Shown: positions 2,803 through 36,293 of the stretch, piece by piece
Position numbering within the stretch: the first letter of the stretch is position 1
How the letters are laid out: each line of letters begins with the position of its first letter
Assembly: GCA_014871385.1 (NCBI GenBank)
Contig: CM026426.1
Location: 105,125,281 to 105,189,280 of the forward strand
DNA: 64,000 nt
Source of the DNA: Ceratodon purpureus
Lineage: Eukaryota; Streptophyta; Bryopsida; Pseudoditrichales; Ditrichaceae
Direction of reading: 5' to 3'
Made by a program: the position numbers and the translations under genes
The notes under the pieces: model-generated
The model's input: only the letters and a program-made list of their open reading frames with translations
Database searches by the model: none
Told to the model about the DNA's origin: nothing

Positions 2803-2927
2803 TGTAAAAATTCTTCTCTCCATAAATCAATTTGTCAACAATTTTTCAGACACACTAAGTTATATCAGATAATAATCTTTTGGTTCTATTGGTCCTATTA
2901 GTCCGGAGACTTTCCTAATCATTCACT

Positions 2928-5900
2928 ATGGATCCGGTTGAAGCGGTTGAAGCGGTTGCTCCAGCTAGAGCCGTTCCGAGACTCGGTACGAGAGAGTGGG
3001 CATCATGGTTTACGGTCAAGCTCAAGGAAGGGTCACTGTCAATTAAGGAAGCCCAATGTGTGTATTGCAGGAACAAGCTTTTGTACGTGAAGTCTAGGTG
3101 CCTTCAGCATTATGGTTGGGACCAGCCCAATCTCTCGAGGGTTTGCCAAAAGGCACCTACCTTAGTGAAGAGGAAGTTTTACTTTTGCGCTGGAAAGAGT
3201 CCCGGCCCTTTGACACAGGAGGAGATGGATGGTATGAGGCCAACATACCCTGCGTCAGTTCAACGTCCGTATTCTAGTGCTTCCACACACGGCACTCTGT
3301 ACGGTGGATCCGAACCCTCGTACAATGATACCAAAGAGGACCAAAATGTCTCCAGTGCTGCACCTAGTAGGGCCGGTTCGAATACCACTAGGAGCTTGCG
3401 GCAACAGGACATGAGTGAAGCATTCCAAATCTCCAAGCGAAAGGAGCTTGACATGTTGTGGGCATCCTTCTTTTACGAAGCCAACGTCGCATTCAACGTG
3501 GCCAAGCACCCAACATTTGTAAAAGCGGTGAGCACAACGTCGGCTGCCGGATTTGACTACAATCCCCCTTCCTATAACGCGATGCGAACAACGCACATCA
3601 AGGAAAAAAAGAAGCAAATCAAGGCAAAGATTGATGAACGTACGAAAACGTCGACCGAGTTATACGGGGCTACCATTTGCTCTGATGGTTGGGATAATGT
3701 GAATTGTCGGCCATTGATGAATGTCATGCTAGTATGTCCGGCAGGCGATGTATTTCGTTGGCTCTGTTGATACGACTGGCGAGAAGTAGTCAAAGGGATG
3801 CATTGCAGGACAGATGAAGAATTATATTCGAGAGATTGGCCCTCAGAATGTTGTCCAAATTTATACAGAAAATGCAAGCAACATGCTTGGCGCCATGGAT
3901 AATATCCTAGAGGAGTATCCTCACATGTACAAGCAGGGATGTTGTGCCCATATTCTAGATCTTCTTATGGAGGACTTGGGCAAGGAATGCTTTGTGAAGG
4001 ATTTGGTTGCCAAAGCTAAACACGTGTGTCATTACATTCGGAGACATCATGTCCCTATGGCCCTTTTCCGCAAATTTGAACCCAAGTTGTCCTTGGTGGT
4101 TCACGCTGAAACCAGATTCGCTTGTAACTATCTGATGATAGCGCCTTATGGACGTTAAATTTGCTTTGGAGCAAGTGGTCATGGCAACGGAGTGGTTCGA
4201 GTATGTTGACAGTTCATTCAACCAAGCCGAGGGGGTGCGTAATCATCCACGCGCAAGCCTAGTACGTCAAACAATTCGTGATGATGGATCCTGGCATCAG
4301 TGTGACAACTTCAAGCACCTGGTAAAACCAGCCCTGGTAGCTCTCAGAACGTTCAATGGAAACCAGCCCGCAATGGGCAAGGCATGGGTTACAATGAGCA
4401 ACCTAAAGGATCACGTGTACAGTCTCCGAGGAGACCCTTGCTTTTTCCCACCAAACATGGCAACAAGGCTGGAGAGGCGATTCGACCATAGATGGGACAT
4501 GATGCACACCGATCTTCATTATGCCGCGGCGCTCTTGAACCCTTGGACCAAAGGGCATCGTGCCCTAGAAGCCATAGGAGAAGCGAAGGCGGCTCTCAAT
4601 CGGGTGTTTTGTCAGGTGGGTGGGCAAATGGGAATTCCATTTGCCGAACTCGTGGCAGAGATTACCCTGATTGACGAGGAACGTGGCCCTTACAGCCTTG
4701 AAGTGACCATCGATATTAAAGCAGCAAATCTGGAACCCCATCAATGGTGGCAAAGGATTGGGGGGGCCCGGGCCCTTGGCAATCATAGCGAAGCGCATTT
4801 TATCTCGAGTCTGCTCCGCCTCATCGTGTGAACGGAATTGGAGCATGTATTTGTTTGTCCACAACAAGGTACGCAACCGCCTGGGGGTGGAGAAGTCTGA
4901 GGCCTTGGTGTACATTTATACGAACAGCAGACTCCTCCGTGAACGCCTACAGCCCAACCCCCTCAGATGGTACGAGAAAAATGCATGGTCAGAGGAGTCA
5001 GATCCGGAGAGAGATCCAAGCGAAGAGGACAGAGATGACGACGATCATTACATACCGGATGACCACGCAGACGGTGAGGATGATGATGTCTGCGGACATG
5101 ATCACGATGACGTTAACACGAATGGGCACAACGACGGTAATGGCAACGGGCACGATGACGCTAACCGCAACAATCCTCGTGACCGCAACAACCACGATGA
5201 TAACGGTGATGCGTACGACTTCAACAATGAACCAGAATATAATCAGGGAAACCTGGACATGAACATCTATGGAGACAAATTACCCACACTCCCGGTATTT
5301 GATGAAGCGGCTAATGCAGAAGGAAGAGACACACGTGACCAAGAAGATGCTATTCCATTCCATATCAATCCCGAGAAAAATGACGGGGTTGCAGATGATT
5401 CGTCCAACGAGGACCATCTTGGAAACGATATCCATGCTGGCGATGATGACGAGGACAATGACGAAGAGGGTGATGGAAGTCATGGACGGGCTGCACATGG
5501 ACCTCATTGGACCGGCCTCGTTAGTGGGGAGGGCAACTGGGGAACCGTTCCGGCACAAGGAGACTCAAGCTTGCTTCAAGAGATTCCTCCTGCTGAGGAG
5601 AGAAGGACCGTTCACGCAATCCCCGCACGGACTGTGCCTCCATCGCAACCCACTGGTATGGGGGGTAACGAAGCAGATACAATTGTGGATGGAAGCCTGG
5701 CTCGGAGGCCCACGAGTTCAATGGGCGCAAAAATAGCTCGACTCCTTAGATCATCTGCAGCGGCAAGGCCTCCACTCAATCGAGCTGGTGGTAGTCGGCG
5801 TGGTGCCTCCACCGCCAACCAAGTCGCTGTGGCGCCAGCTATAGACGACGCCGTACAGAATGTGGCCCAACGTGGTGCGAAGAAGTCCACAGACAAGGTT

Positions 5901-6368
5901 GTTAGGAAACCACCATCACAAGAACCCCGTGGAGGAACACGAAAGTCAAGCAAAAGAACCGGACCTGATCCCCTCCCATTCTATACAGGGTACATTGAAG
6001 GTGGGCCATTTTCTGGAACTAGGGTTGTTCTTACACGCGTAATCAGTGAGGATGGCATCACAGCCATCGGTAATGGAGGAAAGGAGAGGCCTATGAAGCG
6101 CCTAGTAAGTGCCAGAGATGGCAATACGGGTGAAGTTTCCATGCAAGTGCGCAATCTTACATCGGAGGTGGAAGGAGAGGTACAAGCTCCAGTGGTCGGA
6201 GCTCCTGAGGATGAAGGTGACAACGAGCACTCAGAGGAGGAAGACCCGGATTGCGATGAGGCGCCAAATGACAGGGATGTGATAATCCGGCACGAATTGG
6301 GGCCCACTTTGGCTCGGAAAAGACAATCTTCACGCAAGAAAAAGCCTCGCAAAGCAAGGAGAGAGTAG
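2928..6368 (+). pseudogene. hAT-superfamily transposase, decayed, with a long acidic tail
   Basis: A DNA transposase gene read in pieces. The first piece (2928-3770) has a BED-like zinc-finger pattern (CVYC, then QHYGW and VC) and then a DUF659-type RNase H start (YGATICSDGWDNVNCRPLMN). The second (about 3750-4158) has QIYTENASNM, GCCAHILDLLMEDLGK and ETRFACNYL, typical of hAT transposases. The third runs to about 4760. The last carries the hAT dimerisation domain (SASSCERNWSMY near 4815-4850, then HNKVRNRL and EALVYIYTNSRLL). Frame changes fall near 3750, 4145 and a G-run at 4759-4765, and a TAG lies at 3787-3789, so the copy is dead. After the dimerisation domain a tail of about 470 residues runs to 6368. 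It is Asp/Asn/His-rich (about 4980-5230) and ends in a basic stretch (SRKKKPRKARRE). That tail is unusual for the family. I found no convincing element ends. Confidence 0.88.
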
Positions 6369-16362: not shown

Positions 16363-18460
16363 TTACCACAAGATTAGAGGCACATCCGGGGAAGCATACT
16401 TCCAACTAACTCTAAGACCATCTCTAACACAAAAGACCTCAAAAATTGTCCAGGTAGAGTCAAATTCACATAAAGCAGACTGAGCCTTCTCAGGAGACTT
16501 AGCAAATTTTAGCTTCTTAAGGGTGCGGTCCCATTCTACTCTACCATATTCCAAGAGGGAATCCCAGATGTATCTCCTACTTCTAGCATTAGACCACACC
16601 GTCTCCTCAAAGACAGCATCGTTCCTCAGAATCCAGCTACCCCACACAATTATACCACGCAACAAAGCCCAGGCCCTCAAGGCGCCCATCATCCTTAGCC
16701 TGATTCTTTTACCGAAAATGCATTGCTCGAGGGAATAGGCTTTAGCAGGACTCTGGCTTTTAGGTCCTTCAGTGAGCCAATGTAAAATGGTAAATCCAAA
16801 ATTCCAAAGCTCCTTGGCGAAAGGGCATTGAAAGAATCTGTGAGATTTAGTCTCCGGAATGCCCAAACCACAAAGAGGACAGTGAGGGCTAGCTTGGGGG
16901 TTGAACCGAGCTCTCCAAGTGTTGGTTGCTACAGCCTGGTGCAGCACAGACCAAAGGAAAGCAGATTCCTTCTTGGAACAATTGGACCAAACAGCCTTCC
17001 AGTCTGGTTTCGGTTGAAAATTCGTTTCATGCCTCCATTTCTCCGCAATAGGCTTCTTCAGTTGGTCCCTGTTGGAAAGCAATTCCTTGCCAATCTTAGC
17101 CCTGTACAAGGTGAAAGGTTCGCCATTCCTCCACTTCCAGAGGACAGGGTCAAAATCTTGTAAGTCACCAACCTTGCCATAATATGCGAAAGATTGCTTT
17201 GACTTCGATTTCTCTACCAGGACGATCCTGGCAACTGCAGTTTTCCCAGTCCAATTCCTAATTTGGTCAAAAGCATCAGCTCCTTTGGCCGGGATAAGCA
17301 TCCTTGATTGCTGGCCAACATGGAAGATAGGGTACCCGGAAGGCAGAGTTGTGAACCGCTCCATCTGAGAGGAGTCTCCGGGTCTCCAGGTCCTACAAGC
17401 CTGGACTGCAAAGATAGGCTCGTTCTGCGGTTCCGGTCCATAGCCAGCAATCCAAGTACCTGGCCCAATGCTATGATGACTAGTGCCCAGCTCCGCCCTG
17501 TACCGAGTTGAGATAGCATCAAGGAGGAGCGAAACACTCAGTAATTCCTGCTCATCTATTCTGAAATCGATCCTCAGCTCATCCAGCGACTTGAAATCCG
17601 AGGCAGCAGAGTCCCATAAGTCGCCGATCTAGCAAAGGCCACGATTGTACAAGGAAAGAGCAGTGGTTTTGGCCACGTTGAGATCACCCCCCTTGAAATT
17701 AACGCCCCACCAGAGTTGAATCTGGAGGACCTCCGCATCATTTGAGGGCGGAACTTCACGCAGGTGAGCGTTCATTTTCTTCCACGCCATATGAACTTTA
17801 CTCCAGACCTTCGAGCCGGGAACAGATGTGTGGTTGACAACGAGCCCCCATTGCGGATTCATAGGCCACCTGGTACCTTTGGCAGGACTCGAGAACCAAA
17901 GCTTGTTACGGAGCATAATCTGCAAATTGGAGTGACCAGGCAAATAGGCCAGCATCACCCACTTGCATAAAAGACTAGCTGTAGCCTCCTGAGGGTCCAG
18001 CAGCCCCTAACCTCCCACTTTCTTCTTAGCGCAACAATCGAACCAGCTAACTCGAGTTCTAGAGGAATGCTCCGATCCGGACCATAAGTAATTTTGCAAC
18101 AGGGCTTTGGCTTTCGCTAAAGCCTTCACTGATCCGTTCCACACTGAGAGAAAATACCACATGGAAGAGGACAGCACCTGCTTAATGACGAGCGCTCTCC
18201 CAGCCAAGGACAATCTGGTATTAGTCCAGTATTCAAGCTTCGACTTGATCCTGTTAACTAGGAAGCTGTCAATGTCTTCCACATCTAGATCAACCCCGAG
18301 AGGGGTGCCCAGCATCTTAGAGAGGTCTTCCTCTCGGGCCCAGCTCCATCCGATATCCCCCAACCAGGGTATATTGAGGATACGGGAGTTTGGGCGAGAC
18401 ACCCATACCGTAACAATGCCCTTATGCGTTAGAGGTATGGTGTGCATGGGGTGATCACCT
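16363..18460 (-). pseudogene. LINE ORF2 C-terminal half (reverse transcriptase end and zf-RVT)
   Basis: From high to low coordinates: LGTPLGVDLDVEDIDSFLV and LSLAGRALVIKQVLSSSMWYF (the region after the reverse transcriptase core), then a broken middle part, then 16363-17364 with the zf-RVT zinc module (HCPLCGLGIPETKSHRFFQC). The piece at 18007-18582 runs from ORF1-type sequence directly into ORF2 sequence in one frame, so the deletion fused the two ORFs. There are at least two frame changes further down. Confidence 0.8.
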
Positions 18461-20396: not shown

Positions 20397-22002
20397 AGAG
20401 CACTTTTCTGCAGAATTTTGGACCGTCCGATTACATTAGGCTCACATCTCAGCCGTACGCGTTGTTGATAAGGTCCGATATAAGTGGATCTAGCAGATTT
20501 CGAATGCAAGTGGATCTTCTGTTAGTTAATGGATGGACGTATTTTACTTGAATCTGTCCATCTAAAGTTGGTTTATCTTGCATGCGCCTACAGTGCATGC
20601 AAGGGTTGTGGACGTCGACCAAAGTTGTTTTTCGGAGTTGCAAGGAGTCTTAGCTGCGGCGCAGCCATCTCCAGGGTTTGCCACACAAATGTCTGGGGAA
20701 GGGCATCTTCCAAGCTCTACACTAGTCCAGTCCCTCATAACTTCTTACTACGTAGTGCGAGATCCTCCGCAGCTTATTCAGCAGTGAATTACCCATTACT
20801 ACCATGTCTGCGACTTTGTCGACGAAGGGATTGAGAGTGTAGGACAGCATTTCACCACCCATTCATGTGATAGTCCCTCAGATGATGTGTCTAGCAGTAC
20901 CCACATATCCGAGACACCCACTTCAAAGGTTGGAGATATTAGCTTCTACCTGCATCATTCAAACCAGGCGCTGCAGTCCCGTGAGCCCCTTGTCCAGAAT
21001 CCCAACACGTTATTTGGATCCTTCACCTTTCAGGACAGTCTCCATCGAGAAGAACTCGACAGCTACCCCAACTGTCAGACTCCTTCCCCTATGCTTCAGG
21101 TGAGTTAATCGTCAAGTTTTTCCAGAGCTTTTGAGTTTCAATTATGTACTTGTTATGCTACCCAGTTAATGTTATTTGATGGCAACATGTTGTACTTGTT
21201 CTCCACTGTATTTGCACGTAGGTCCTAGACAACGTTCTTCCAACCTCTATTTTCCAGAATGTGATCTACCTTCTCTAACCGCGTAGTCTCTTTTGTGCGT
21301 TCACGGCTCTCCTCACTTGTAGCATGGGGGACCAAGCCCAGAGACAGAGGTCGAGGCCGCGACGTGCTGGTCTTGAGGAGAGGGTGTCAAAAATGGAAAT
21401 TGTAGAGGCTGCACGGTTAGAGAAGGCAGAGCGCGATCGGCTGTACCAGGAACGCCGTCGCAGGAGAACTTCAATGGACTCGGAAGGAGGAGATATTTCT
21501 ACAATGAACAGAGCGCTTGAGAATTCAGATGTCATTTCTACACGAGATGCATCTAGGGTTGCTCAAAAAATTATGCACAGCATGTGTGATGAGCTGAACC
21601 TACTTCCTGGTCCCCATTGTCGTCAGACTGTGTTTGAGAAGGTTCTTCGACACAGTCTTGTTTGGCCTTTGTTACCTTACTATTATCCACGGCATTTAGA
21701 AGCTAAGAATATTCATTACTTTATCCAAAGTTATAGAGCCGAATTACAGTCTGTGTCCATACCGTTCTCAAATAACATGTTGTCTAGAAAAGGAGCACTT
21801 CTGGATGCTGCTGTGAGTGGGAATGTTGGGGGTGTTAGGGCTCTTTCACGTGTTTTAGGAACCAAGCCAGAAAATATTCAAGCCGCCTTGGAAAGGAGAG
21901 AGGAATACGAGGAGGGAGCTTCTTGATCTGCACCCCTTTGCAGGCAAAAAAGAACAGACAGATCATCACAATACACTCTTGCTACAGTGAACACCATATT
22001 CG

Positions 22003-22035
22003 TTATTTTGGGAGATTTATCATCTCCCAAAATAA
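22003..22035. repeat. Fold-back at the left end of the inner element
   Basis: TTATTTTGGGAGAT (22003-22016), loop TTATC, ATCTCCCAAAATAA (22022-22035): a perfect 14-bp stem. The first arm is the inner half of the terminal repeat, so the left end carries an extra inverted copy of it. The right end lacks this. Confidence 0.85.
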
Positions 22036-22509
22036 TGCATTAGGTCAGGTCGAGTTAAAATGGGCACAATGGTCCCATACTTGGCAAGGAAAAGCCTATA
22101 AGCAATTTCCATTAATTTGGGACATGATCACACAGTACTAATGGGAAATGAAAGAACGTAGTGGTTTACTAGAAATATTTGAAAAAATACAAGGTAGGTC
22201 GAACCACCCTAAATGAACACCAAACAAATAACAAGAAATGGACACAACGGATATGCTGGGAAATCTTATATTATATATATGTGTGGAAATACAAATTAGG
22301 TCGACACTCCTTAAATGTTGAATCCGTGACAGGCTCTTTCAGACCTGTACAAACAATCAAGTTGTTCGACTAACATAGCTGCCTACAGTTTCCAGAGTAT
22401 GATATGCAATCCAAGAACATACGGACTTCAGTTTAGTCCCGTGCCAACAAATGTATGTTATCGGCTCTACTCCAGAGATCCAAACTAGGAACTTCAACGC
22501 TAGATGTCG

Positions 22510-22840
22510 TTTAGGTCGCCTCGACCTAAATGGCTGTTATGTGGCAGTACATATGATATAGAATCAACGCTTTAGGGTACTAAGTAAAAATCTACACTAA
22601 GAACTATAGGTGACCTGTTGGTATCCCGCACTCGTAAAGTACGAACTTCAACGACAAATGCAGTTTAGGTCGCCTCGACCTAAACTGCGGCGTATAATGT
22701 GGTACACATGATAAATAAGGAATGGACTGAAACACTTAAGTAGTGTTCCCTCCAATTAAATATATGTAATTAGCTAGTATTCAAAACATAAATATGCTAG
22801 AACTAATACGCTATAACTGATTAGGTCGACTCGAGCTAAA
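22510..22840. repeat. Palindromes, left group A (three copies, GGTCGA type)
   Basis: 21-bp palindromes at 22510-22530 and 22664-22684 (core TTAGGTCGCCTCGACCTAA) and a hybrid at 22821-22840 (GGTCGA left half, GAGCTAA right half). Degenerate half-sites with GGTCGA lie near 22197 and 22300. They are 3' of the minus-strand gene at 23033-23550, towards the left end of the element. Confidence 0.9.
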
Positions 22841-23032
22841 CATCTAGCTTTGTCTAGAAAACATAATGTTGGATGAAGGGACGAACGAAATTCAGTTCAG
22901 TCGTCTTCAAACGAATATAAGCGATCTCACTAAATTCAGAACTTCAAGACCACCAACTTCAAAGCTACATGTTTATTCAGAATCCGGAGACACAAATCTC
23001 TCCAAGGAGGCCTTTATAATGTCCAGTTGTTT

Positions 23033-23550
23033 CTATGGGATCTTCAGCGTTGGATCCTTGCCAACGTCCCGCTCGTTGACATTTTTTTTAACTTTGGATT
23101 TCCAAGCTGTTATGACTGCATCAGTACTCTGCCACCACTCGGGTACATCCTTCTCAACTGTCCAACGAAGTCTCCCATCCACATCCCAGCCGGTATAGAA
23201 TTTCAAAACATTTTCATCTCCGGAAATTGGGCGGTAGAACTCTACTTGGAGCGTGTTCGGGAGGTCAGGGTTCGAATTAGGGTTAGTCAAGGCCCTCACA
23301 AGCCAGAAAGGACGATCGTCTTCATCGCAGGGTCGAAGCGCTAAGAAGTACCCTGCAAAAAGGTCTCGCGCAACACGGAACGACGGTCCTGGGCGATCTC
23401 GTTTGTGACCAACAGAGTGATCATCCTCTGCAAACTCCTCGCGCAAAGTTCCATCTTCCTGAAACTCGTCTTCGACGGAGTGAGCGAGCCGCGTGGATGG
23501 CCAAAAACCATGCTCCAAGGCGAGGAGAGCATCAAAGAGGATGGAAAGAG
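23033..23550 (-). CDS. Unknown protein, last exon, minus strand
   Basis: The open frame is continuous from the palindromes at 23568-23635 down to a stop at 23033; translated palindrome sequence (LARVELN) opens the frame, so the true exon probably begins lower. The protein is acidic in its first third (HSVEDEFQEDGTLREEFAED), then has a compact region with DRPFWLVRALTNPNSNPD, LQVEFYRPISGDENVLKFY, and TVEKDVPEWWQSTDAVITAW. The aromatic, beta-strand character recalls small reader folds (BAH or Tudor-like), but I cannot name it. Earlier exons are not resolved. Its strand is opposite to that of the main gene of the element. Confidence 0.45.
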
Positions 23551-23567
23551 CCGTGTGGATGCAGAAG

Positions 23568-23635
23568 TTTAGCTCGACTCGAGCTAAACTCATGCTGCCC
23601 TTTGGATGCAAAAGTTTAGCTCGACTCGAGCTAAA
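23568..23635. repeat. Palindromes, left group B (two copies, GCTCGA type)
   Basis: TTAGCTCGACTCGAGCTAA-centred palindromes at 23568-23588 and 23615-23635, next to the 5' border of the minus-strand exon, thus probably in its upstream intron or leader. Confidence 0.9.
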
Positions 23636-24232
23636 GTGCCGTCCGCAAAAAGCGGCGCTTTAATAGGTGCTTCCATCTTCGGAATTCTGAGTCGCAGACT
23701 CAGAGTACGCTTACGGTGTCCGCTCTAAAACGTCTGTAAGAAGTAAAGAGAGACACTGCAAATACACCATGACTTGAAACAATGGAAAGCATACAACAAC
23801 CAGAAATCAATGATGTGTACTGATGATCGGAGAAAACTAAAGAGAAGACGTACAAGAGAAACGGCGCAATACAGCTTCCGCCCAGAAAACAACGACCTCC
23901 AAGTGAGCGCCGAGAGCTCCTACAAGCGAGAGAAGCCAGTGAGTAGAGAAAAGACTTCGAGCGGGACGATTCCAGAGGTCATTCTCTAACGTGTGACCGT
24001 TTTCATGCCGCTTGAGTTTTGAAAATAGGCGGGAATCATGCATGACCATTCGTCCCTCCACATTTCGGGGTGTGAGAAAGCGCGGGAATTACCACTTTCC
24101 ATACTTCTCAGCCCTTTAGATAGATGCAGATGCGAAATATTTGGTGCATTAAATCAAATGGGATGGGTTGGAAGTCCCTATAGCGCCAGACAGAGTGTTG
24201 ACTTTTGGCCGCGAACTTTTCTTCCTCTATCA

Positions 24233-24316
24233 GGGTTAAGGGTTTAGGGTATAGGGTTCAGGGTTAAGGGTTTAGGGTCTTAGGTCCAGGGTTAAGAGTT
24301 TAGGGTATAGGGTTAA
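24233..24316. repeat. Degenerate telomere-like repeat
   Basis: Repeated AGGGTTAAGGGTTTAGGGTATAGGGTT with small changes: about ten units related to the plant telomere unit TTTAGGG, mixed with TTAAGGG. Interstitial, inside the inner element. Confidence 0.8.
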
Positions 24317-25072
24317 GGCATTTCTAGGGACATTAAATATCTCGTACATGGAATAAAATTAAATTGAAAATTGTTTGAACCCATTTGAATTTCGTGAGTC
24401 AGGTTGATACAGGGAAGTATATCGTTGCAAATATTCATACCTCCATTTACTAAATATGTATTTTTGCTCAATTTCATTATTATATATGATATATGAAATC
24501 AAATCATTGTATGTGAGTTGATGAATAGTTCTTGATAGACCTTGGTAGATATGTTTTTAAATTTAGAATTATTTATTTATTCTACATATTTAGTCAGATA
24601 TAATTATCATGTATATATATTCATGTACTTTTATTTATGTCTCTATTTATTTCATAATGTGTTCTTTACGCCGTGAATGGTGTAGATTTGTTCTTTCGTT
24701 TCTGAAACTCTACATCTTAACATGTATATTTTTAATATACATGTTAATATTATAATATGTATAATATAATTATATATTCATTTACAAGTAGGTACTAATA
24801 TATTCATTAACAATTTAATGTCCAAGTAAGAATAGTACGAGAATAATAAACTATAATCTAATGTATACAAATCTTAAAATGATATACAAGTATATTCAAG
24901 TATATACGAAATACATTGTTAAAAATAATAGTATTAGATTATAGAATTTAATTCATTTATCATGGCAAATTATATACGTTTTTTAGAAGATTGAATTTTT
25001 TATATTTAATCATGAGAAGCAAATATTTAAACCATGGTATGCCTTGTATGATTGGCATGGGGTGAAAGTACG
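24317..25072. other. AT-rich interval with an older copy of the long repeat
   Basis: No gene. From about 24770 to 25072 the sequence is a diverged direct copy of 25150-25440 (shared TTTAAACCATGGTATGCCTT). Confidence 0.6.
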
Positions 25073-25530
25073 TTGACCTAAATGTAAGCCTAATATTCTT
25101 AAAGTACATGATAGTATCATAATTTAATTATAATATAATAATATAGTATAGTATACTAAAGCTCTAATATATTCATTTACAATTTTAGATTTAATTATTG
25201 ATTATAATACAAGAACAATAATCTATATTCAAGTATATACAAATCTAAAAATGATATACAAATATATTCAAGTATATATACAAAGTACATTGTTAAAAAA
25301 AAAGTATTAAATTATAGAATTCAATTCATTTATGATGGCAAATTCTTTATATTTTTTAAAAGGTTTATGGTTTTTTATATTTATTCATGAGAAGCGAATA
25401 TTTAAACCATGGTATGCCTTGTATGATTGGCATGGAAATTACACAAACCTTAATCAATTCATTAATGTTCTACCTTGACTTCTATTTGTACAATTTTATT
25501 ACATTCTAATAAGAAAGTGGAATGTTTGGT
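25073..25530. repeat. Left arm of a long inverted repeat
   Basis: About 455 bp that matches 26840-27295 in inverted orientation with few differences (by eye about 95 percent). Starts ACCTAAATGTAAGCC and ends at TAAGAAAGTGGAATG. Confidence 0.9.
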
Positions 25531-25900
25531 TCACTCATTTTTTAAAAAAAAATCATAAATTATGGATTCAAATGAAACGTATTAAACCAATGATCATAAT
25601 TATAATTGTAGTATTAATATATAATATCGAGAAAGGCTCTAGATGCTTGTCTAAGCATACAATCCCATTAATCAATTCTTTAATAATAAATTAAAATGAC
25701 ACATATAAGTAAATCCGGACTTTCGAAAGCCCACATCGGTCAAAGTCCCGTTTCCGAGTCTGGTCAAAGTCCCCTTCGTTACTCTGGAACATTCGGCTTC
25801 CCGCCCATGCCGCTTCATAAGCATAAGTTCCTTTGGGCGACGAAACAGTTGTTTCATTCTTAGTTTCCCTTCTGTTTCATCTACTTGTAGTTCATTTGCT

Positions 25901-26239
25901 GTGATGAGGAGGTCGGGCGGTGGTTTGAGGGTGTCAAGTTACCCGCCAGACGAGTGGGAGGTGGTTGTTTCCCCACAAGGAGTGGAGGAGCTTCGTCCCT
26001 GGTTTATGGCTGTGGAACGCGCCCGTGGTCGCGGCGTAGAGATTCCCCCGTGGAACCTCATTGCACGCCTAATGCAGCCTGGTGTGGAGTGGGATTGGAC
26101 TATTGCACATGGTCTAGAGCAACTGGAGATTATGAACGCTTCCAACATCAAGTTTCCCCTCACCTCCGGCGAGGGCTTCTCTATGCCTGATTCTAATGAG
26201 GAGGGGAGCGTGGATTTGGGGAGCCGACCACATGAGTGA
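25901..26239 (+). CDS. Small ORF in the core of the inverted repeat
   Basis: 112 residues, no recognised family. It has WEVVVSPQGVEELRPWFMAV, an Arg-rich stretch and an acidic end (DSNEEGSVDLGSRPHE). Its GC content is far above the AT-rich flanks. A GTGAGT donor-like site overlaps the stop, so it may be a first exon. Upstream lies GGTCAAAGTCC twice (about 25738 and 25763) and a CpG-richer stretch, a possible promoter. Confidence 0.35.
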   Translation: MMRRSGGGLRVSSYPPDEWEVVVSPQGVEELRPWFMAVERARGRGVEIPPWNLIARLMQPGVEWDWTIAHGLEQLEIMNASNIKFPLTSGEGFSMPDSNEEGSVDLGSRPHE

Positions 26240-26839
26240 GTAGGTGAATTGTTATCTCCTCGGAACCTTTAACCTTGTCCTCAGTTTGATGTTTTCATAA
26301 TAATAGATTGCGTTTGCTGTATGTATTGCGCAGAATTTTAATGGCTGGATGCTGAGTTCGTTCTGATTGTCAGGAGGATGAGTCCTTGCTTTTGACATGC
26401 ACTTTTCCGTTTTAAACCCTAAACATCATACCATCTGATCCTGTTTTTCTCTTTGCTCTTGAACTTGCAGGCATCTTCGATATACTTCTACGATTTTACT
26501 TTTTGCTGCTAATCACCTCAGATATGGAATGGGGACTTCAGGAGTAGTTAGCAGGACCGTTAGATTATACAATATTTGGAAACCATAGATGTAAAAATAG
26601 ATGACTTTCATCTTTTGGTAACTTTTGCTGATGGTGTTCCCCGTGTGGATTGTAAACTATTTTTGGAATGGAATGCCTTCAAAACAGGGTTCTTCTAGAC
26701 GAAAACCAGTGTTTCATCTGATGCTTTCATATTTGTATATTTCGTATTCTAATATGTCCATGCTATCTAGTAAATGTAGTAGTAAATTTTGTTTGAATCT
26801 ATGAATTATGAATTTTGTATTTTAAAATTATGCAAATGA

Positions 26840-27295
26840 AGCTAGCATTCCACTTTCTTATTAGAATGTAATAAAATTGTACGAATATTAGTCAAGATAC
26901 AACGTTAATGAATTGATTACGATTTTTGTAATTTAATGCCAATCATAGAAGGCATACCATGGTTTAAATATTCGCTTCTCATGAATAAATATAAAAAACC
27001 ATAAACCTTTTAAAAAATATAAAGAATTTTCCATAATAAATGAATTGAATTCTATAATTTAATACTTTTTTTTTTAACAATGTACTTCGTATATATACTT
27101 GAATATATTTGTATATCATTTTTAGATTTGTATATACTTGAATATAGATTATTATTCTCGTATTATAATCAATAATTAAATCTAAAATTGTAAATGAATA
27201 TATTAGAGCCTTAGTATACTATACTATATTATTATATTATAATTAAATTATGATACTATCATGTACTTTAAGAATATCAGGCTTATATTTAGGTA
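26840..27295. repeat. Right arm of the long inverted repeat
   Basis: Inverted partner of 25073-25530. The core between the arms is about 1.3 kb. Confidence 0.9.
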
Positions 27296-28519
27296 AATAT
27301 GTTTCCAATTTGAGTATATAAAATTCATTATCATTGCAAATAGTGTATTTGAATTTGATGCTTAGTCAAATAATTACAAATTATTATTACAAAATTGGAA
27401 GAAGCATTATTGAATTGATTAAAATTTAGTTAATTCAAAAAAATCAAAAATCAAAATCTAATGTAGATTCAAAAATGTATATAAATGCAAATATAATCAA
27501 AATGCAATACCAACTTCACATAATGCAAGCATGTTTTGAAGCATTGTAAAATATTACCAATTCATCAGAACCCTAAAAAAACGAGTTCCCTATCCTGTTT
27601 TGGTTTCATTGAAACTCACATTGGGTTGGTAACCTCAACCCATTCATAGTAGACATTAAGGGTCATGGTTCTCCAATCCCATGTGAGTTATTGGAGCCAT
27701 CATGGTGAATTCTTCTTAAGGTAAGAAAGAGCAGGTTTACCAAACCATATGGGGTTAACAATATGGAGACTGAATTGCACTATCTATCTTTAAAGTAAAT
27801 TCCTATAAAAAGTTATTTTCACTTTCTCACTACCCGAATCAGGTTCATAAAAATAAAATAAAAAAAGGGCCAGTAATATTTAACTAGCAATTCTTACAAA
27901 TATTAATAATACCATTCAGTGATTCTAATTAAACTAAAATTAATATTCCATAATGAAAATTAAATTTTTAAATTGCGGCATCTATGTACATGCTTGTATA
28001 TGAATTCTGAATTACCAGAATCTTCAAAATTGCATGGAACTTATTTGGAATAGAATTCTAATTCATAATTATACTATCATGTATTTTAAGAATAATATGA
28101 TGATAACATTCACGTAAATATGTTCCCAATTGGAGTATAGTAAATTAATTTTCATTTCTAACAGTGTATTCATATTAAATGCTTTTGTAATATAATAACA
28201 AACTATTATTTAAACTCTAATCTTGTGTAATTAAAATTGAATTTGTCTTTGAACATATTTTAACTTCGTATATCTCAAAGGATTATTAATAAATCATACA
28301 TAAATATTGAAAGGATTATTTCCCAATATCATATATTAATACTACAACAATCATGATCATTGTTGTAAGTGGATTCATTTGAATCCATAGATTGAGGTTC
28401 ATTTTTTTGGAATTATATAAAAGAGTAAGAGAACTAAGTACCGTTTAAGAATTCAAAAATTCGAAAAAGTATTGGTTAAATCTAGGTTTAAATTACACAA
28501 TAAATTCAAAAATGAAACA
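27296..28519. other. AT-rich interval
   Basis: No gene seen. About 28060-28170 is a diverged direct copy of 27240-27360 (shared TACTATCATGTA and TTTAAGAATA words). Confidence 0.5.
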
Positions 28520-28523
28520 TTTT

Positions 28524-28770
28524 AACCCGCGGGGAAGGGGCATTGAACCCCGTGGTGAAGGGGCATTGAACCCCGCGGGGACGGGGCATTGAACCCCGCG
28601 GTGAAGCGGCATTGAACCCCGCGGGGACGGGGCATTGAACCCCGCGGTGAAGCGGCATTGAACCCCGCGGGGACGGGGCATTGAACCCCGCGGTGAAGCG
28701 GCATTGAACCCCGCGGGGACGGGGCATTGAACCCCGCGGTGAAGCGGCATTATACCTCGCGGGAATGGGG
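28524..28770. repeat. 23-bp GC-rich minisatellite, about ten copies
   Basis: The unit is close to GGCATTGAACCCCGCGGKGA plus three bases, alternating GGGGACGG and GGTGAAGC types, so a 46-bp higher-order unit is visible. No stop codon occurs on the minus strand, and 23 is not a multiple of three, so all three minus frames translate into one 23-residue repeat (containing FNAASPRGS and PRGVQC). I do not call a gene. Confidence 0.93.
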
Positions 28771-29250
28771 CTTTTCTTTTCGGCGGCGCGGTCACTGGTC
28801 CTCGCGAGGGCGAGGAAGAGATCCCCACCCAGACCTCGTCCACGCGTGTTTTCTCCTGCTTCTGTGTGTGTTTAGTTCTTGCGTTCTTTTTCTGTGGTGG
28901 CGGGAATCTTGTTGTTGTGGGTTGAGGAGTGTGGCGCGAAGCTTCATGGGTTATGTGCGTTGTTAAGTAGTGTGAGAGCTTGTTTACCGCGCTTCTGGAC
29001 GTCATTTTCTTGGCAGTGTTTGCCAGTGGTTTTGTTTTTGGAGGAGTGTTTGCCGCTGGTAGTATTTGCCGCGAGTTCACTTCCGTGTGCGGTGATTTCT
29101 TTTACAGTTCCGTGTATTCGGCGTCGCAATTTGATGTTGATTCCCTTCGATTTCGTCTACAGCCGTGAGCATTAGGGTTTTAGGTGTCTTGTTTGTAAGA
29201 ATTGCGAGTGTTAGTTGTGCAGATTAGGTCGTAGGTTACAGTTGCGCAGA
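28771..29250 (+). promoter_or_regulatory. CpG-rich probable promoter of the inner element's main gene
   Basis: After the minisatellite the sequence is CpG-rich (GGCGGCGCGG, CTCGCGAGGGCGAGG), then turns into T- and G-rich transcribed-looking sequence with several GT-rich donor-like sites before the first clear coding exon at 30701. No clear TATA. The assignment rests on position only. Confidence 0.35.
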
Positions 29251-29549
29251 TTATTGGTTAGGTTTTTTTGTATTCAACGCGTTATTACAAACGGAGGGTT
29301 TTGGGTTGCACGTTGAGCGAAGCGGAGTTGGTTTTCTACATCAACGCCTGCACGTCCTTAGTCCCGACGGTTCAGACGTACGAATCTGAGAATTCAGGTG
29401 ACTTCTTCTTCATTTTATCCTTCTTTCCTTCTTCAATTTTTCATTCTTTCGGTTCTGCTCTTTCACCATGTGATCTCACGCATAGGGTTAAGATGTTATT
29501 CCAAGCTTAGGGTTAGCGTGTTTTCTTCATTTTTTGTCTAGAGTTTTAA

Positions 29550-29770
29550 TGTTCCTGCTTTCGTGTCTGTCTCTGTGTGTGTGAAAGTGTGCATGCTGTC
29601 TGATTTTGTGCATTTCTACTGTGGCTGTGTGTCTAGGTCTGTGTATTGTATATGTACGTGCGTTTTTGTGTGTATTATGTATTGTGTCTGTGTTTGTCTA
29701 TGTGTGTCGTTGTCTGAATTCTGTTTCAATTGTGAATGTGTGTGTGTTTATCGGAGAATTATTGTCTGTT
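29550..29770. repeat. TG-rich low-complexity stretch
   Basis: Irregular TGTGTG and GTCTGTG words. Open frames here are Cys/Val-rich and look non-coding. It lies in the presumed 5' intron. Confidence 0.6.
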
Positions 29771-30206
29771 TCTATACATGGCTGTGTCATTATGAACTTG
29801 TATTATTAAATGCTTGCAATAGCATTTTTTCCTAATTCTGTACTACATATCAACGTCGTCTGCATTGCGAAACATAGTCTTCAAACTCTGCATTGCGAAA
29901 CATAGTCTTTAAACTTTTTTTGGATATCTATGTAGGTACAGTCGCATTAGAATCCTATTAGGGGTCTTTTGAAAGCACCGCATTAGTTTTTCTTCTGCCA
30001 TTTCCGGATACACTCTAATGGGATGGGATACATATCTTGTCTTCTACGGATTCGTGTTCTGAACTTTGAAATGCCTTCCTTCTTGCAGGCAAAACACGTT
30101 GCAGCAACTTTACAACGGAGTAAGTTGAGGAAAATTCTCGAAATGGTCGACAGGTACTACATATTTCTGCAAATTGCCCAATCAAAACCTCCAAATGCAA
30201 GGACAG

Positions 30207-30658
30207 TTTAGCTCGAGTCGAGCTAAACAGCTTGCCAAAGAGAACTACCGCTTCACAGTTTAGCTCGACTCGAGCTAAACTCACATCCACCATGCATAAG
30301 AATGACTGAAATCCAAAATTAATTATTAATTCAAATTCAGTAATTGATACAGTTTAGCTCGACTCGAGATAAATTGTAGCCAAATGCTATTCTGCACACA
30401 GAATTTAAGCTCAATTCGAGCTAGAATTCAGTGTGCAGAATAGCATTTGGCTACAGTTTAGCTCGAGTCGAGCTAAACTAAAGGTCAACCTCCCGAAACA
30501 TACCCGGGAGATCCACTTCAGTTTAGCTCAAGTCGAGCTAAATTGTGAGCGCTCCATCGTGAAGCCCAAGCAGTTTAGCTCGACTGGAGCTAAACTGTAG
30601 TGATATGTCATGTGTTATTGTTTCAATAGAACCAACATTTAGCTCGAATCGAGCTAAA
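30207..30658. repeat. Palindrome cluster upstream of the main coding exon (seven copies)
   Basis: 21-bp palindromes of the GCTCGA type at 30207, 30259, 30353 (one change), 30457, 30522, 30574 and 30638, plus a degenerate one near 30404. All are before the coding exon at 30701, so in the 5' intron or leader. Confidence 0.93.
30353..30478. repeat. 126-bp compound palindrome
   Basis: Two 21-bp palindromes flank inverted copies of TGTAGCCAAATGCTATTCTG and on to CACAC, with AATTTAAGCTC and GAGCTAGAATT at the centre. The whole can fold into a stem of about 60 bp with few mismatches. Confidence 0.88.
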
Positions 30659-30700
30659 TGGCTTCAAATTTCTCTAATGGTAAATGTCTCCTCCTTGCAG

Positions 30701-33700
30701 CGAGGAGAAAGCAAGGGTACTTGCGGCGCTACAACATTTCTTCAAGCCTGTTCCTACCTCGGATTCAGATGACGATGACGGGGATGACTCAAACACATTT
30801 GAGCCGTGGACCTTCAAAGACCCCTCGAAGGTTAGAAATTGGACATTGCGATGGGTTGCACACACACCATATCTAACGTTCGCAACCATTTTCAAGGGTG
30901 AAGTCGATGATCCCCACGTCATCGACATGGATACAAAGGTCACCGAGTTTGACCATAAGGAGAGAGATCAAATAAAGATCCTCTGCTCATCTATGGGGAC
31001 TCATCCATACCTCTTCTCCATAGTAGTAGACGTAGCAGAGAACCTCTTCGACTCCATTTCCTTAATGGAAAGTCTGTCCAATTCACCTTACGACGAGATA
31101 GTGTCCACGATGAGGCAAGAAGTACTGGACAGGAAATGGGCAACCAAAGATGGACGAACTCTCCCGGCGAAATCCCTAGCGCGGAAACTGAGGAATGTTG
31201 TCAGCACCCTTGCGCTCCGCGCAACGGAGGCAAAGGTGAAGGAGAACCTTGGAAAATCTCATATCGACGTTTCTGGAGTGACAGCAACCGGGAGCCAAAT
31301 GGGAAGCCAACAGACAAGACGCAGTAGGGGGAGAGCAATAGTTCCATCCCAAAGCCGAGGCGCTTCTGCAACTCCCACACCCCTCTCACCATTGAAGAAG
31401 AAAGGCCTCGAGAAGAAAACTGACAAGCCAAAGCCCAAGAAGGACTTGCTCTTATCTGTAGAGGACTTGGCAACAAGTTTGAACTCTGGTCTCGGGGAAC
31501 TCCCTAAGGTGAACAAGGTTGGAGAGGTCCTGGACTTCGATAACGCCAATTGCATTTACCAGAATTTCTTTGCTCATTGCCAGGACGAGTTCGTCTTCAA
31601 AACAAATGGGCAACCAAAGAAGTTCAGTGTGGACATGACGCGGTGCAAGCCCGCACCGGCCCATTGGACTATCCGTGCATATGAGAAGCGGGGCATGGAG
31701 GAGATGAAGAATTACTTGGTCAACATGCCGGATAGGACACAGAAGCAAACCCTGTGTCTGATGCTAGGCACGAAGGCACGTCCTCAACAAGAAGAGGATC
31801 TAAGGGGCTGTACATTCCACATCATCAACGGGCAACACAACGTGGCGGCGTCCAAATCTCTCATCGAGGATAACGCCAGTGAGGAGTTGGTGAGGGACTT
31901 CAGGAGGTGGGATGCGTACATCGTTTGGACGCTTGATATAGATAAGCTGCGAAAGATCTCAGCATTCTATAATCGGGTGAACCATCTCGCACCCTTTAAG
32001 CCAACTTGGGCGAGCAATATACTTGCCGCAAGAACAGTGTGGGTGAAGTATGGTAAGCCCCAAAAGAAACATGCTGCCGCTGGTGCTGCCGACCGGAGGA
32101 GTACAGGTCCAAAAAGTAATCCCGCGTCGAAGACGTACGACGTAAGTTCACTGATTCATTAGCATTGGCAGTTTAGCTCGACTCGAGCTAAACTGTCTGC
32201 AGTTTAGCTCGAGTCGAGCTAAATATTGATAATCTTCTTTGTTTTCATTATTCTGGTGTACCTCGAGCAATTTAGCTTGTGTCGAGCTAAAGAGTAGTTC
32301 CGTAACAGCATCATTTAAGGTTTCTTCCTGTGCGTATGCAGAACTTTGTGAATGCAATCAGGGAGCGCTTCGCTATGATCGATGTGGCGAAGCATCAAGC
32401 CATGGTGGCGAAGAAGGGAGGGAAGAACACTATCTCCCTAACAAACGAGCTGTTTATCATCACATCCAGTGATGAAACATGGGATCTGTGGAAGGAGGTG
32501 ATCGCGTCTGCGGCATGTGGTGGACTCATTGATCCCGACACCGAAGCTCCTCATAAGAAATTCTATGAGAAGAAGGGGTTCGTTCCGGACAAGGATGGGA
32601 CGCTTCCAAGGGAGTTCTTCAAATGGCTCAGGAACTTGACAGAGGATCACCAGAAGATGTGTAAGCACATCCTGCATAAGTCTGGGCCTAGTCGGAAGTA
32701 CACATATCCGAAGGTTACCATCAAGCAGAATACGAGTGTATTGGAGGACTGCTACTCGGTCAAGGAGTGGGCAGAGCGGAGAAAACAAAAGGCTGTAGCT
32801 CAAGCGGAGTTCAACAACATTAATCCAACGCTCCATTTATTCAAGAGAGACGGCTTTGATGTACCCACTTGGAAGCATTTCAAGAAGACTTACTATGTCT
32901 CCAAGGAGTCCAAGCACGTTCTGCTTGATTGGGGTATTCCAGACTCGTACTGGACTAACTCCAGAGCTACACAGTTCCGCAACAAGTCGGCCAAGGATCT
33001 CTCCCCATATGCGGTTGAGTTCTTCAAAACCTTCCTGAAGGTTCGACATGCATTTCAGTGTCCTTCAGCTGAGATGTGGTTCCTCCCATTCATCAGGGAG
33101 CCTCGACTCGCCTTCGGATCTTGGCCCTCCGATATATGGAGGTTGGCGGGCGGCGCACTCACATTTGGAATCCTCGACTTCCGGTTCCTCCCAACCTACA
33201 AGACGAGGCACAACTACACTTTGGAGAACCCCTTCTTCATGGAGTTCTTCAAAATGATCGATGAGTATGGGCAGCCCGAGTTTCACGATGTTCGCCACTG
33301 GCTTCTCATTTGCGGAGACGATGAGGACTTCGCCCAGGTGCTCACTTGGGTGGAGCGAAACACCTTGAGTGGTCGTAGAAGAGTCCATTCTGAGTATTTA
33401 CCCGCTCCTAACGAGCGACTGCGCGGACACCCACCAAAGAGCAGAATCGCGATGGAACCCGTCAAACTCTTGTTTCTCATTGATGATAATGTACTTGAGA
33501 GCGACGGGTCAACGCCTGAACCTCTGATCAAGTACACAACTCCGGACCACCCACTGTACAAGGACAACAGGAAGTTCAACGAAAGGAGGTACGCAATGTA
33601 TCCATCCGAGTTAAGGATGGAGTTCTACCTGCGTGTCCACGACACTTTCTGCAGTACTGAGGGGGCGGTTTATCAGCTCTATGCTGGAACGAAGGCCCTT

Positions 33701-34787
33701 ATGGCCGCCGCGGTAAGTGTTTCCACACTTTAGCTCGAGTCGAGTTAAATCGTTCTACTGTTTTGATCTTATGCACCATGTATGCATAGACTTCCACACT
33801 TTAGCTCGAGTCGAGCTAAACCTCGTTTACCTTGCCTTTGTTTTTTCAGATGCTCTCGATCTCGGCTTTCGTGGTCGCGGATGATAGTGACTCCTCTCAT
33901 ATGATCGAAGCTCAGTCACTTGGATTAACTCTGGACCCAACCGATTTTAGTGTCGACGCTTATTATGTCGATATGGAACGCTTTCCGGAATATGGCAGAG
34001 CCGTGCGAATAAGGGAAAGGCACAGCTGAGGAGGAGGGTGACAATGTTGATTTGGAGGAGGATGCCCCCACCGAGGAACAGACCCCCTCCTCCAGTGCTG
34101 CGGACATTAGCAATGAGAGCGATGCTCCGCCTTCTGATCCGGTAAGTCAGACAACATCTGAGGGTGGAGTGGGAAGAAGACTCGATTTCCTTGACGTCGA
34201 CATTACGCGTACGAACGATGAGAGACCGGGTTCTGCACCGGAGCTAGGATCCGGAAGTGGGAGAAAGACTGGCGGTGCGCGAAGTACTGGAAAGCCGGCA
34301 CAGAAGAAGAAGAAGCCCAACCCTACAGCTCGGCAAGCCTCTCCGTTAGGGAGAGCCGCTCCCTCTCCGAATGTTCAAGCTCTTATGGCAGAATTACAGG
34401 CGTCCAGGGAAAGGAAGAGAGACTTACAAGATAAGATGGCACAGCTAGAAAATGGATATAGAGAAGACTGTGCAGGCGACAGTGCACGCGGCTCAGCGAG
34501 GCATCAGTAACGTCCCTATTTTCCCGAATGCGGGTCTAGTTCTGCCCAACGTCCAGCCGATAGGTAGCGCCCCACCTTCTCCGCGAGTACTTGAGATTTT
34601 GGGATCCCCTACCAGTGGTGCAAAATTGCCAATGTCGGATCCGAGTCCCGCATCAGTGCCTGAGCCAAGCCATCATTGCACCGACCAGGTCATGCGTGAC
34701 CCTAGTCCCAGCCCACCCTGTTCTCCCTCCCACAATCAGACTCAGGGAGATGCTCCTGAGACATCTTCAGGTCCCTCCCAAACTTAG
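30701..34787 (+). CDS. Large spliced gene: ParB/DGQHR-like motif and methyltransferase-like part
   Basis: Clear exons: 30701-32141, 32342-33712 and 33850-34029, each with CAG acceptors and GTAAG donors; coding-like sequence continues to 34787 in other frames, so the 3' part is damaged or spliced differently. Exon 1: acidic N-terminus, helical domain, basic Ser/Lys linker (KKKGLEKKTDKPKPKKD), then CTFHIINGQHNVAASKSL with WTLDIDKLRKISAFYNRVNH. This resembles the GERR/DGQHR region of ParB-Srx folds. Exon 2: VLLDWGIPDSYW, then PSELRMEFYLRVHD and GAVYQLYAGTKALMAA, followed in exon 3 by SAFVVADD. The order recalls beta-class N6/N4 DNA methyltransferases (catalytic motif, then KP-L-L and D-FAG motifs), but key residues differ, so activity is doubtful. 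The end is Pro/Ser-rich with a coiled coil. All introns carry the palindromes. Both domain names are inference. Confidence 0.6.
32172..32291. repeat. Palindromes in intron 32142-32341 (three copies)
   Basis: Copies at 32172-32192, 32203-32223 and 32271-32291 (the last with changes in the centre). All lie between the donor at 32142 and the acceptor ending at 32341. Confidence 0.93.
33729..33820. repeat. Palindromes in intron 33713-33849 (two copies)
   Basis: Copies at 33729-33749 and 33800-33820, both preceded by TTCCACAC, both inside the intron. Confidence 0.93.
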
Positions 34788-34890
34788 ATTTTTTAAACTC
34801 GGAATTTTGTAGATGAGGTGTTAATACCGGAGTAGTTCACTGAAATGTGCATTTTGTACCAAAACGATTGTAATTAATACAAATGGGCTG

Positions 34891-35304
34891 TTTAGCTCGA
34901 CCCGAGCTAAACCGTTCAACTTTTTTCCAATCCCTTCTATGTCAGCTTCATTGATCATTCTCTGATGACTCTATAGTTCTCTTGCAATGCCCAGGTCACG
35001 AAGTGCATGAGGAAGTGGACGATCTTCGGATCGTGGATGATGTTGTCATGGCCCAAACTGCGGACAAGCCTGTACGCTTTTCATTCCTTTCTGATGTTTC
35101 GTTCATGTAAGTGGGTTAAGTGATGGTAGCTGCTCGCATCTGTTCTTGCCTCCTTCATGTCTTTAGTTTAGCTCGAAGCCACCTAAAATGATTGATCTTT
35201 TTCTACTTTCATCTAGGTTCGTGCTAGCTTATGTCGGCTTCTTCCTTCAAGGTCCGTTCGACCTTTACACTTGCACTCAGCAGTTTAGGTCGATTCGACC
35301 TAAA
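34891..35304. repeat. Palindromes between the late exons (three copies)
   Basis: 34891-34911 (GCTCGA type), a broken copy at about 35167, and 35284-35304 of the GGTCGA type. The GGTCGA type again appears towards the end of the element, as on the left. Confidence 0.88.
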
Positions 35305-35586
35305 CCGAAATCTCTTCCCAATGCTAATTTATCCCCTTTGCAGATGCCGAGGCTACGATCAACAACTACAGGATCCGGGGCAAGGAAGTCCGCCGACTCC
35401 CACTCTAAACCATCCAGTACCCGTCGCCACTCTCTGCCAGAGTCAAGCATAGGTGACAGGCGTAGGCAGAAGTTGCAACGTCTTCTTGATAGTCCAATGA
35501 TGCAGGTTGAGGGAATGTCCTGGACACGTCAGCGCCAACGGGAATTTGTCAAGTCAAGAATTAAGGCTTACGGAGGGACTCCATAA
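34994..35586 (+). CDS. Terminal exons, short basic protein end
   Basis: An exon at about 34994-35070 (translating HEVHEEVDDLRIVDDVVMAQ) with GTACGC donor, and a last exon 35343-35586 after TTTGCAG: basic and Ser-rich (GARKSADSHSKPSSTRRHS), ending QRQREFVKSRIKAYGGTP. AATAAAA at 35682-35688 fits a polyadenylation signal. It may be the 3' end of the gene starting at 30701 or a separate small gene; a stop at 34787 favours separation or further decay. No family recognised. Confidence 0.45.
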
Positions 35587-35891
35587 CCATATAGAGGATA
35601 CTATGTACTGTATAGCAATGGCGCAGACAATATAGACGATTATAAGAGTCCTCTGTGTTATTTCAATGTAATTATGTTTTGAATAAAACGATTGATCTGT
35701 TTGTCAAATTTTCTCGTCTGCTATTTTTGCCTCATTGTCTTGCACACTTTTTGTGTTATTCAAGTTTCCGAATGTAATTTATGTGATTGGACATTGCCTT
35801 TTATTGAAACCTTGGTTTAGAAAAGGTAATGAATAGTTACTACTAAAAATACAGGGGATGTGGTATATTCTTTTTCCTTGTTTATATTGCG

Positions 35892-36014
35892 TTTAGGTGT
35901 GATCGACCTAAATGACTTAATCATCATCTCTCTTTATACATGTTTTTAATGAATCAATGAACATTACTAAGTTTTCTCTTGTATGTTCGTGCATTTAGGT
36001 CCACTTGACCTAAA
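35892..36014. repeat. Palindromes after the last gene (two copies, GGTCGA type)
   Basis: 35892-35912 and 35994-36014, both degenerate in the centre. They are the last before the right end of the element at 36169. Confidence 0.88.
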
Positions 36015-36293
36015 TGACATGGACCTCATTGTTCCTTTAAGGTGTTTTTAATGATTCAATATTGATTTCCGCAAGATTGAAGTAAATGGGAGGGGACGAA
36101 TGTGGCCATTTCTCTACACGCTGATTTCCCAAATTCAAGAATATCTCCCAAAATAACGAATATGGTGTTAGTGCAAGCCTGGTGGCATAGTCAAACTAGA
36201 GTTTCGCCAAACAGGAAGGACGTCATCAACAAGGACGATGGGCTGAAGAGAGGTGGAGAGACACACGCGAAGCACTTTTTGACAGTCACTCAG

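Follow-up and report, generated by a model that had tools for sequence, protein, structure and literature searches.

A conserved 21-bp palindrome in the introns and gene flanks of a Ceratodon purpureus transposon family, a candidate binding site for the element's own ParB/methyltransferase-like protein

The 64,000-nt stretch of Ceratodon purpureus DNA analysed here (the window) contains a large DNA transposon whose ends, at 21990–22016 and 36143–36169, are 27-bp inverted repeats without a mismatch; AGTG flanks the element on either side as a 4-bp target duplication. Scattered through this element is a 21-bp palindrome, TTTAGSTCGANTCGASCTAAA. At four or fewer mismatches it has 24 sites, all within 22039–36014, and none in the other 49.8 kb of the window; at five or fewer mismatches there are 26, again all between 22039 and 36014. 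A sequence-only reading of the window had listed 21 such positions and assigned them to a single element, which these counts bear out, each listed position holding the palindrome with 0–3 mismatches to TTTAGSTCGANTCGASCTAAA. In 100 first-order Markov simulations of the element 0.02 sites per run are expected at four or fewer mismatches, and the 18 sites of the element with at most one mismatch compare with none in any simulation. The half-site TTTAGSTCGA (one mismatch or fewer) occurs 45 times in the element, with one of the 45 solitary, and nine times elsewhere in the window.

The element belongs to an 18.5-kb family, and the window copy is a truncated and decayed version of it; four long copies (C4, C6, C5 and C1) were fetched from the genome for comparison. 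The three with both exact ends (C4, C6 and C1) measure 18,507, 18,509 and 18,938 bp and have 4-bp target duplications (AAAT, CTTG and TTGT, respectively); for C5 no exact right end turned up, and the fetched sequence was taken as far as it ran (18,869 bp). The long copies encode a DUF7869 protein, the presumed transposase, together with a protein with ParB-like and N6-adenine-methyltransferase-like parts and an NIF phosphatase. In C4 the DUF7869 protein has 955 codons and matches Pfam DUF7869 (PF25273, E 1.5e-42), and the NIF/FCP1-type phosphatase frame lies at L009 7051–7875 (PF03031, E 1.3e-13). The window copy is without most of the transposase gene, the phosphatase region and other stretches present in the long copies. 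The ParB-like and methyltransferase-like exons probably form one protein. The features of the window element are as follows.

21990..22016, + strand: left terminal inverted repeat, 27 bp, 100% complementary to the right end
22039..22840: left terminal palindromes, G-type or mixed, at 22039, 22510, 22664 and 22820, with weak sites at 22193 and 22295; the four long copies have corresponding sites
23036..23547, − strand: 3' part of the gene for the DUF7869 protein (presumed transposase), with homologs P0054–P0060 and longer copies; the N-terminal part is missing here
23568..23635: two palindromes (23568, 23615), remnant of a 47-bp array upstream of the transposase gene that has 8–9 copies in the four long elements
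25904..26239, + strand: open reading frame of 111 amino acids, function not assigned, matched in all four long copies (in two pieces in C1)
30143..30153, + strand: putative start of the coding sequence (ATGGTCGACAG) of the ParB/methyltransferase-like gene, from the splice context
30207..30658: intron-1 array of eight palindromes (30207, 30259, 30353, 30405, 30457, 30522, 30574, 30638)
30701..32141, + strand: exon with a predicted ParB-N/Srx-like fold (residues ~287–443 of window:30702-32144, motif IINGQHNVAAS), from fold matches and homologs
32172..32291: intron-2 palindromes (32172, 32203, 32271); relatives have sites in the same intron
32342..33712, + strand: exon with a predicted beta-class N6-adenine DNA methyltransferase-like fold (residues 241–461), from fold matches and homologs
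33729..33820: intron-3 palindromes (33729, 33800); relatives have sites in the same intron
33850..34029, + strand: start of exon 4 of the ParB/methyltransferase-like gene, with an early stop in the window copy, where C4 has an uninterrupted stop-to-stop frame of 321 codons
34891..34911: palindrome downstream of the ParB/methyltransferase-like gene
35167..35304: one mixed palindrome (35167) and one of G-type (35284), upstream of the small 3' exon
35345..35587, + strand: short exon-like frame towards the right end, with counterparts at 92.5–95% identity in each of the four long copies
35892..36014: right terminal palindromes, G-type (35892, 35994)
36143..36169, − strand: right terminal inverted repeat, 27 bp

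Two classes of site are distinguished by the G/C-type position of the half-site. The C/C class makes up 16 of the 26 window sites and forms a contiguous run from 23568 to 34891, and the seven G/G and three mixed sites lie only outside it, an arrangement anticipated from the letters as 'GG towards the ends, GC inside'. The same order, G-type at the termini and C-type inside, recurs in each of the four long copies, themselves of common descent, with one mixed interior site in C4. The two half-sites agree at this position in 23 of 26 window sites (permutation p 0.00034), and it is the only position within the 21-mer with a matched two-sided change (plus and minus 5). Compensatory change between half-sites, an idea raised earlier, is thus found at position 5 and not at the other stem positions, which are nearly fixed. 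Among 48 window half-sites A-7 and T-4 are kept in all 48, TTT and G-6 in 45–47, and the inner G and A in 41 each; in the decayed window copy bases have been lost mostly at the inner three half-site positions. The GANTC centre is intact in 13 of 24 window copies and the outer TTTAGST is nearly invariant, and on these grounds a strict GANTC (CcrM-like) or TCGA methylation target was rejected as the role of the palindrome. The GANTC specificity of CcrM is itself no argument, since several fold matches of the methyltransferase-like exon tie with CcrM.

Conservation is near-perfect in two arrays of the long copies. One, upstream of the transposase gene, has 8–9 palindromes per long element at 47–48-bp spacing; the other, in intron 1 of the ParB-like gene, has 5–12 at mostly 52–54 bp (scanned ranges of the four long elements), lies more than 7 kb from either end, and is similar in size to the first and larger in two of four copies. 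The 68 palindromes of the two arrays carry two substitutions in 1360 non-central positions, and spacers of the same length, compared in whichever orientation fits better, have mean identities of 0.78 and 0.81. The suggestion that whole palindromes are kept up therefore holds for the arrays, and the other copies and relatives agree with it. The spacers of one array are found in both orientations, which implies that recombination between palindromes probably happens, although single orientation calls are soft since the spacers are partly self-complementary. Spacer patterns, order and number differ among C4, C6, C5 and C1, as if recombination or template switching had taken place between palindromes in the arrays.

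The four long copies hold 33, 28, 35 and 32 sites at four or fewer mismatches (128 in total), at the termini, upstream of the transposase gene, in introns 1–3 of the ParB-like gene and in the 3' flanks. None of the 128 falls in mapped coding DNA (25.7 of 74.8 kb), defined by tblastn matches, and the closest coding stretch has five mismatches; this definition excludes the NIF frame and the remainder of exon 4, which the listed C4 sites avoid too. Exon avoidance had been claimed from the window, where it is weak once clustering is allowed for; with the other copies and the relatives described below added, the evidence for it is strong. Palindromes 23568 and 23615 do lie in a stop-to-stop frame, but the window transposase gene is truncated there and in the long copies the corresponding sites are upstream of the gene. 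The further statement that every intron contains palindromes applies to the three introns of the ParB/methyltransferase-like gene.

Across the genome (362,488,568 bases in 151 contigs, of which contig C6 has 110,524,308) TTTAGSTCGANTCGASCTAAA has 4669 matches at three or fewer mismatches, against 21 for its reversed control, and the 27-bp end has 392 (192 + 200, three or fewer mismatches) against none, sufficient for up to about 195 elements. On contig C1, 39 of 40 exact sites lie within two stretches bounded by terminal inverted repeats (56.8 kb of 29.0 Mb), a count taken from the 50 exact sites listed, which run through C1 into C2 and appear complete for C1; one of these stretches spans 37.8 kb, longer than a full element. 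The ten exact sites listed on C2 are in a copy that has a right-end repeat and is 92% identical to C4 over 7.3 kb. No palindrome was found in the element flanks (0.8–0.9 kb to the left of four copies and 45–412 bp to the right of three). The earlier expectation that the palindrome is confined to elements with AACACCATATTCG ends is therefore supported, and on C1 the uniform spread that would have spoken against it is not seen, one of the 40 exact C1 sites being outside recognisable elements.

Relatives of the two exons were also found at the protein level, 31 for the methyltransferase-like exon and 22 for the ParB-like exon, at 26–94% identity. Some of these predicted proteins continue beyond the conserved splice donor into intron sequence, and of 53 tails the 36 with at least nine residues were used and the 17 shorter ones dropped. 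The palindrome is encodable with two or fewer mismatches in 24 of the 36 tails, 15 of them with none, in differing reading frames, and in none of the 36 exon bodies, which are about 15 times longer on average. As controls, 200 scrambled palindromes averaged 0.06 tails (maximum 2) and shuffled tails gave 16 of 7200. Five of the 12 tails without a palindrome end in LDSS and are possibly cut-off palindromes, which were not counted; also among the 12 is P0035, predicted from a public contig, which runs from the ParB-like exon into an inverted transposase region and represents a rearranged copy. Introns 2 and 3 of the window gene thus have counterparts with the palindrome in these relatives.

The exact palindrome is also present in three GTDB contigs (L001, L002 and L003). 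The first, CADCWO010000071.1 (4.3 kb, from a 'Synechococcales' metagenome-assembled genome), is a relative of the moss element and contains a 963-codon DUF7869 frame without a match in the PDB by sequence and six sites at four or fewer mismatches (0.015 expected from shuffles), all outside the frame and on both sides of it; it is most likely eukaryotic contamination of a cyanobacterial assembly. Of 1763 DUF7869 candidates in the moss genome 47 were scored, and all 47 match, at 67–68% identity to L001, 34 of them without an internal stop. The other two contigs (L002 914–934 and L003 567–587) have the exact palindrome at apparently one locus in two Rhizobium genomes, perhaps by chance or as an operator. 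In IMG/VR there was no match to the window exon and no exact palindrome, and the pattern candidates (13 and 145 stretches for two alignments) are not relatives.

We propose that the element's own ParB/methyltransferase-like protein binds the palindromes as parS-like sites and that selection on the element maintains them, and give this a probability of roughly 0.55. The site is specific to the element, absent from mapped coding DNA, near-perfect in arrays and recurs in the same introns of distant relatives. A fixed sequence in which only position 5 co-varies is what sequence-specific binding of a dimer predicts; in a pure RNA stem matched changes could occur at any position. Two to three dozen sites occupy the non-coding room of the element: its termini, the region upstream of the transposase gene and, in the second gene, the introns and 3' flank. 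The likely reader is the element's protein in which a ParB/sulfiredoxin-like and a DNA-methyltransferase-like domain are joined; its dimer would contact both 10-base half-sites, and the arrays may load many protein copies along the element as parS loads ParB in bacteria. Protein bound in this way might tag the element against silencing by the host, or bring its ends together or compact them for transposition. This reader is preferred because bacterial ParB-type proteins work from clustered palindromes, the introns of its own gene carry the sites, and similar fusions in algal transposons are proposed to be able to bind their own elements (PMC12477816). Among the functions suggested from the letters, protein binding accordingly fits best; methylation is possible, with GANTC kept in only about half of the window copies, and recombination is probable and need not be the function.

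A more elaborate version is tentative, and we lean against it as a whole: a parS-like code for self-recognition, in which non-coding and intronic arrays load the ParB/methyltransferase-like protein, probably a catalytically altered or dead methyltransferase serving as DNA reader, which coats the element, G-type and C-type sites encode end and interior, and the protein together with the NIF phosphatase might aid transcription despite silencing. That the two site types let the reader tell ends from interior is conjecture.

Several observations weigh against binding by the ParB/methyltransferase-like protein. Although its two predicted domains resemble ParB-like and methyltransferase folds, with residues 241–461 matching the beta-class enzymes CcrM, M.BceJIV and M.RsrI, neither domain search returned a Foldseek match at E ≤0.001 (best 1.6e-3 and 3.2e-3), and the model of the ParB-like exon has a low mean confidence (66.4). 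No believable family was found in Pfam for either exon or in NCBIfam for the ParB-like exon, nor a believable PDB match by sequence for either. The canonical motif IV, [DNS]PP[YFWH], is absent from the aligned place, assigned by fold and motif order and not by residue-level superposition, in all 32 methyltransferase-like sequences, which have DFR or DLR instead; motif I (FxGxG) is likewise absent from its aligned place in all 32, one of which ends before it, and methylation is therefore doubtful. On the side of the sites, 2020 of 14,180 rotations of the whole window element also avoid coding DNA, which is not significant, and 66 of 4722 do so within the ParB/methyltransferase-like gene, a modest result; the read-through relatives share ancestry, and co-occurrence of gene and sites covers the four fetched copies and L017, the latter by DNA identity. 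Array sites were picked by pattern (four or fewer mismatches), which is biased to good ones and could miss badly decayed units, but with spacings so regular few of these can have escaped. Recombination from palindrome to palindrome may keep the arrays uniform, and turnover of tandem arrays by recombination could itself favour whole palindromes. A lone exact palindrome lies outside any recognisable element, at 4583 of L016 (C1:15612000–15621500), with an array-like flank of about 30 bp, a half copy about 70 bp upstream and no element remnant within the 9.5 kb around it; the unit may thus move alone or as filler DNA. Finally, the DUF7869 protein, just as specific to the element, is a candidate binder too.

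Binding by that transposase, with the palindromes acting as spread-out subterminal repeats that synapse the ends or repress its own promoter, is unlikely but credible. It would account for palindromes near both ends, the 47-bp array directly upstream of the transposase gene, the L001 sites flanking the DUF7869 frame and the distinct G-type class of the outer sites in all four long copies; however, it is not obvious why a transposase would need an intron-1 array of similar size so far from the ends or single sites in introns 2 and 3. The marks of recombination seen in the arrays, namely spacers in both orientations and varying copy number (8–9 and 5–12 in the scanned ranges), together with the lone C1 site and its nearby half copy and a window inverted repeat with 62-nt arms built around palindromes, are what would be expected of self-propagating recombination or template-switch sites, multiplied and homogenised by copying and inversion with little further function. 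We regard this as improbable, since the sequence recurs outside coding parts in introns of relatives of 26–94% identity and in L001, and copying alone poorly explains spacers that drift beside unchanged palindromes. It is more improbable still that the palindromes act as RNA hairpins, taking part in splicing or triggering small RNAs, or are bound by a host factor. Many intronic copies could fold, with the less conserved positions -1 and -2 in the loop, but the single symmetric variable position led us to reject a hairpin as the main function, the rest of the stem being nearly fixed, and sites also lie near both termini outside the mapped coding sequence.

Other features of the element and its surroundings were also noted. 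A nested foldback insertion at 24.8–27.3 kb was considered and dropped: its 111-amino-acid frame is matched in four of four long copies, so that the foldback seems to be part of the family. A GC-rich 23-bp tandem array (28472–28820, 11 overlapping register copies) lies upstream of the ParB-like gene. Elsewhere in the window (2919–6365, 16366–17628 and 55049–57863) there are matches of hAT type (DUF659, Dimer_Tnp_hAT) and LINE type (zf-RVT, RVT_1), and Rfam gave no window match at gathering thresholds. Among the exact terminal repeats listed (100 of 392), 40 are on C1–C5 and 60 on the first 57 Mb of C6, which by its size may be a sex chromosome of Ceratodon purpureus; judged from these, the family looks enriched on C6. 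Transposons called 'Lanisha' were reportedly named from this moss by Carey in 2021, and if the present elements are among them, the family may already have a name.

Comparison with known systems places the element among large DNA transposons while setting its sites apart. Sola1 elements make 4-bp target site duplications, as found for the window copy, C4, C6 and C1. CACTA/EnSpm elements have CACTA-type ends and 3-bp duplications; the present element ends in AACACC and has duplications of 4 bp. In plant CACTA elements the TNPA motifs are subterminal transposase-binding repeats, and the likeness is that of many short sites for the element's own protein, but here the palindromes extend over 18.5 kb including introns, partly in arrays of 47–48 and mostly 52–54 bp. 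The 4-bp duplication is stated for Sola2 as well (PMC3627910).

With ParB–parS the element shares a predicted ParB-N-like fold and clustered palindromic sites on the one replicon or element, several such sites lying on an element that carries a ParB-like gene. Bacterial parS is a 16-bp site, TGTTTCACGTGAAACA, unlike the 21-mer in sequence and length, and the present sites fill transposon introns and gene flanks. To the beta-class methyltransferases CcrM, M.BceJIV and M.RsrI the resemblance is one of predicted fold, the canonical DPPY and FxGxG motifs being replaced or absent here.

The closest parallel is Sola1-1_Ec32 of Ectocarpus, whose accessory protein, in the portion of the source consulted, joins a ParB-like part to a DNA methyltransferase, with similar proteins in green and red algae, and these are proposed to be able to bind their own element's DNA (PMC12477816). 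Both are large DNA transposons with a ParB-like and methyltransferase-like gene on the strand opposite the transposase, the two domains here being predicted in the same protein; the likeness is one of described architecture, and the present methyltransferase-like domain differs in its non-canonical catalytic motifs. A large transposon with such an accessory protein is thus of an already published kind. That portion of the algal account names no cis sites (PMC12477816), whereas here the sites are the finding. A limited literature search returned no report of such palindrome arrays, in itself weak evidence, and intron-housed arrays of the likely target are, as far as that search shows, a new feature. 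The family may therefore supply the missing half for the algal ParB–methyltransferase proteins, a defined and highly conserved site with thousands of copies in one genome, and makes it testable whether eukaryotic transposons mark their own DNA. The palindromes could belong to a system by which the transposon tags its own DNA, and if this is true, introns serve as housing for a mobile element's DNA sites.

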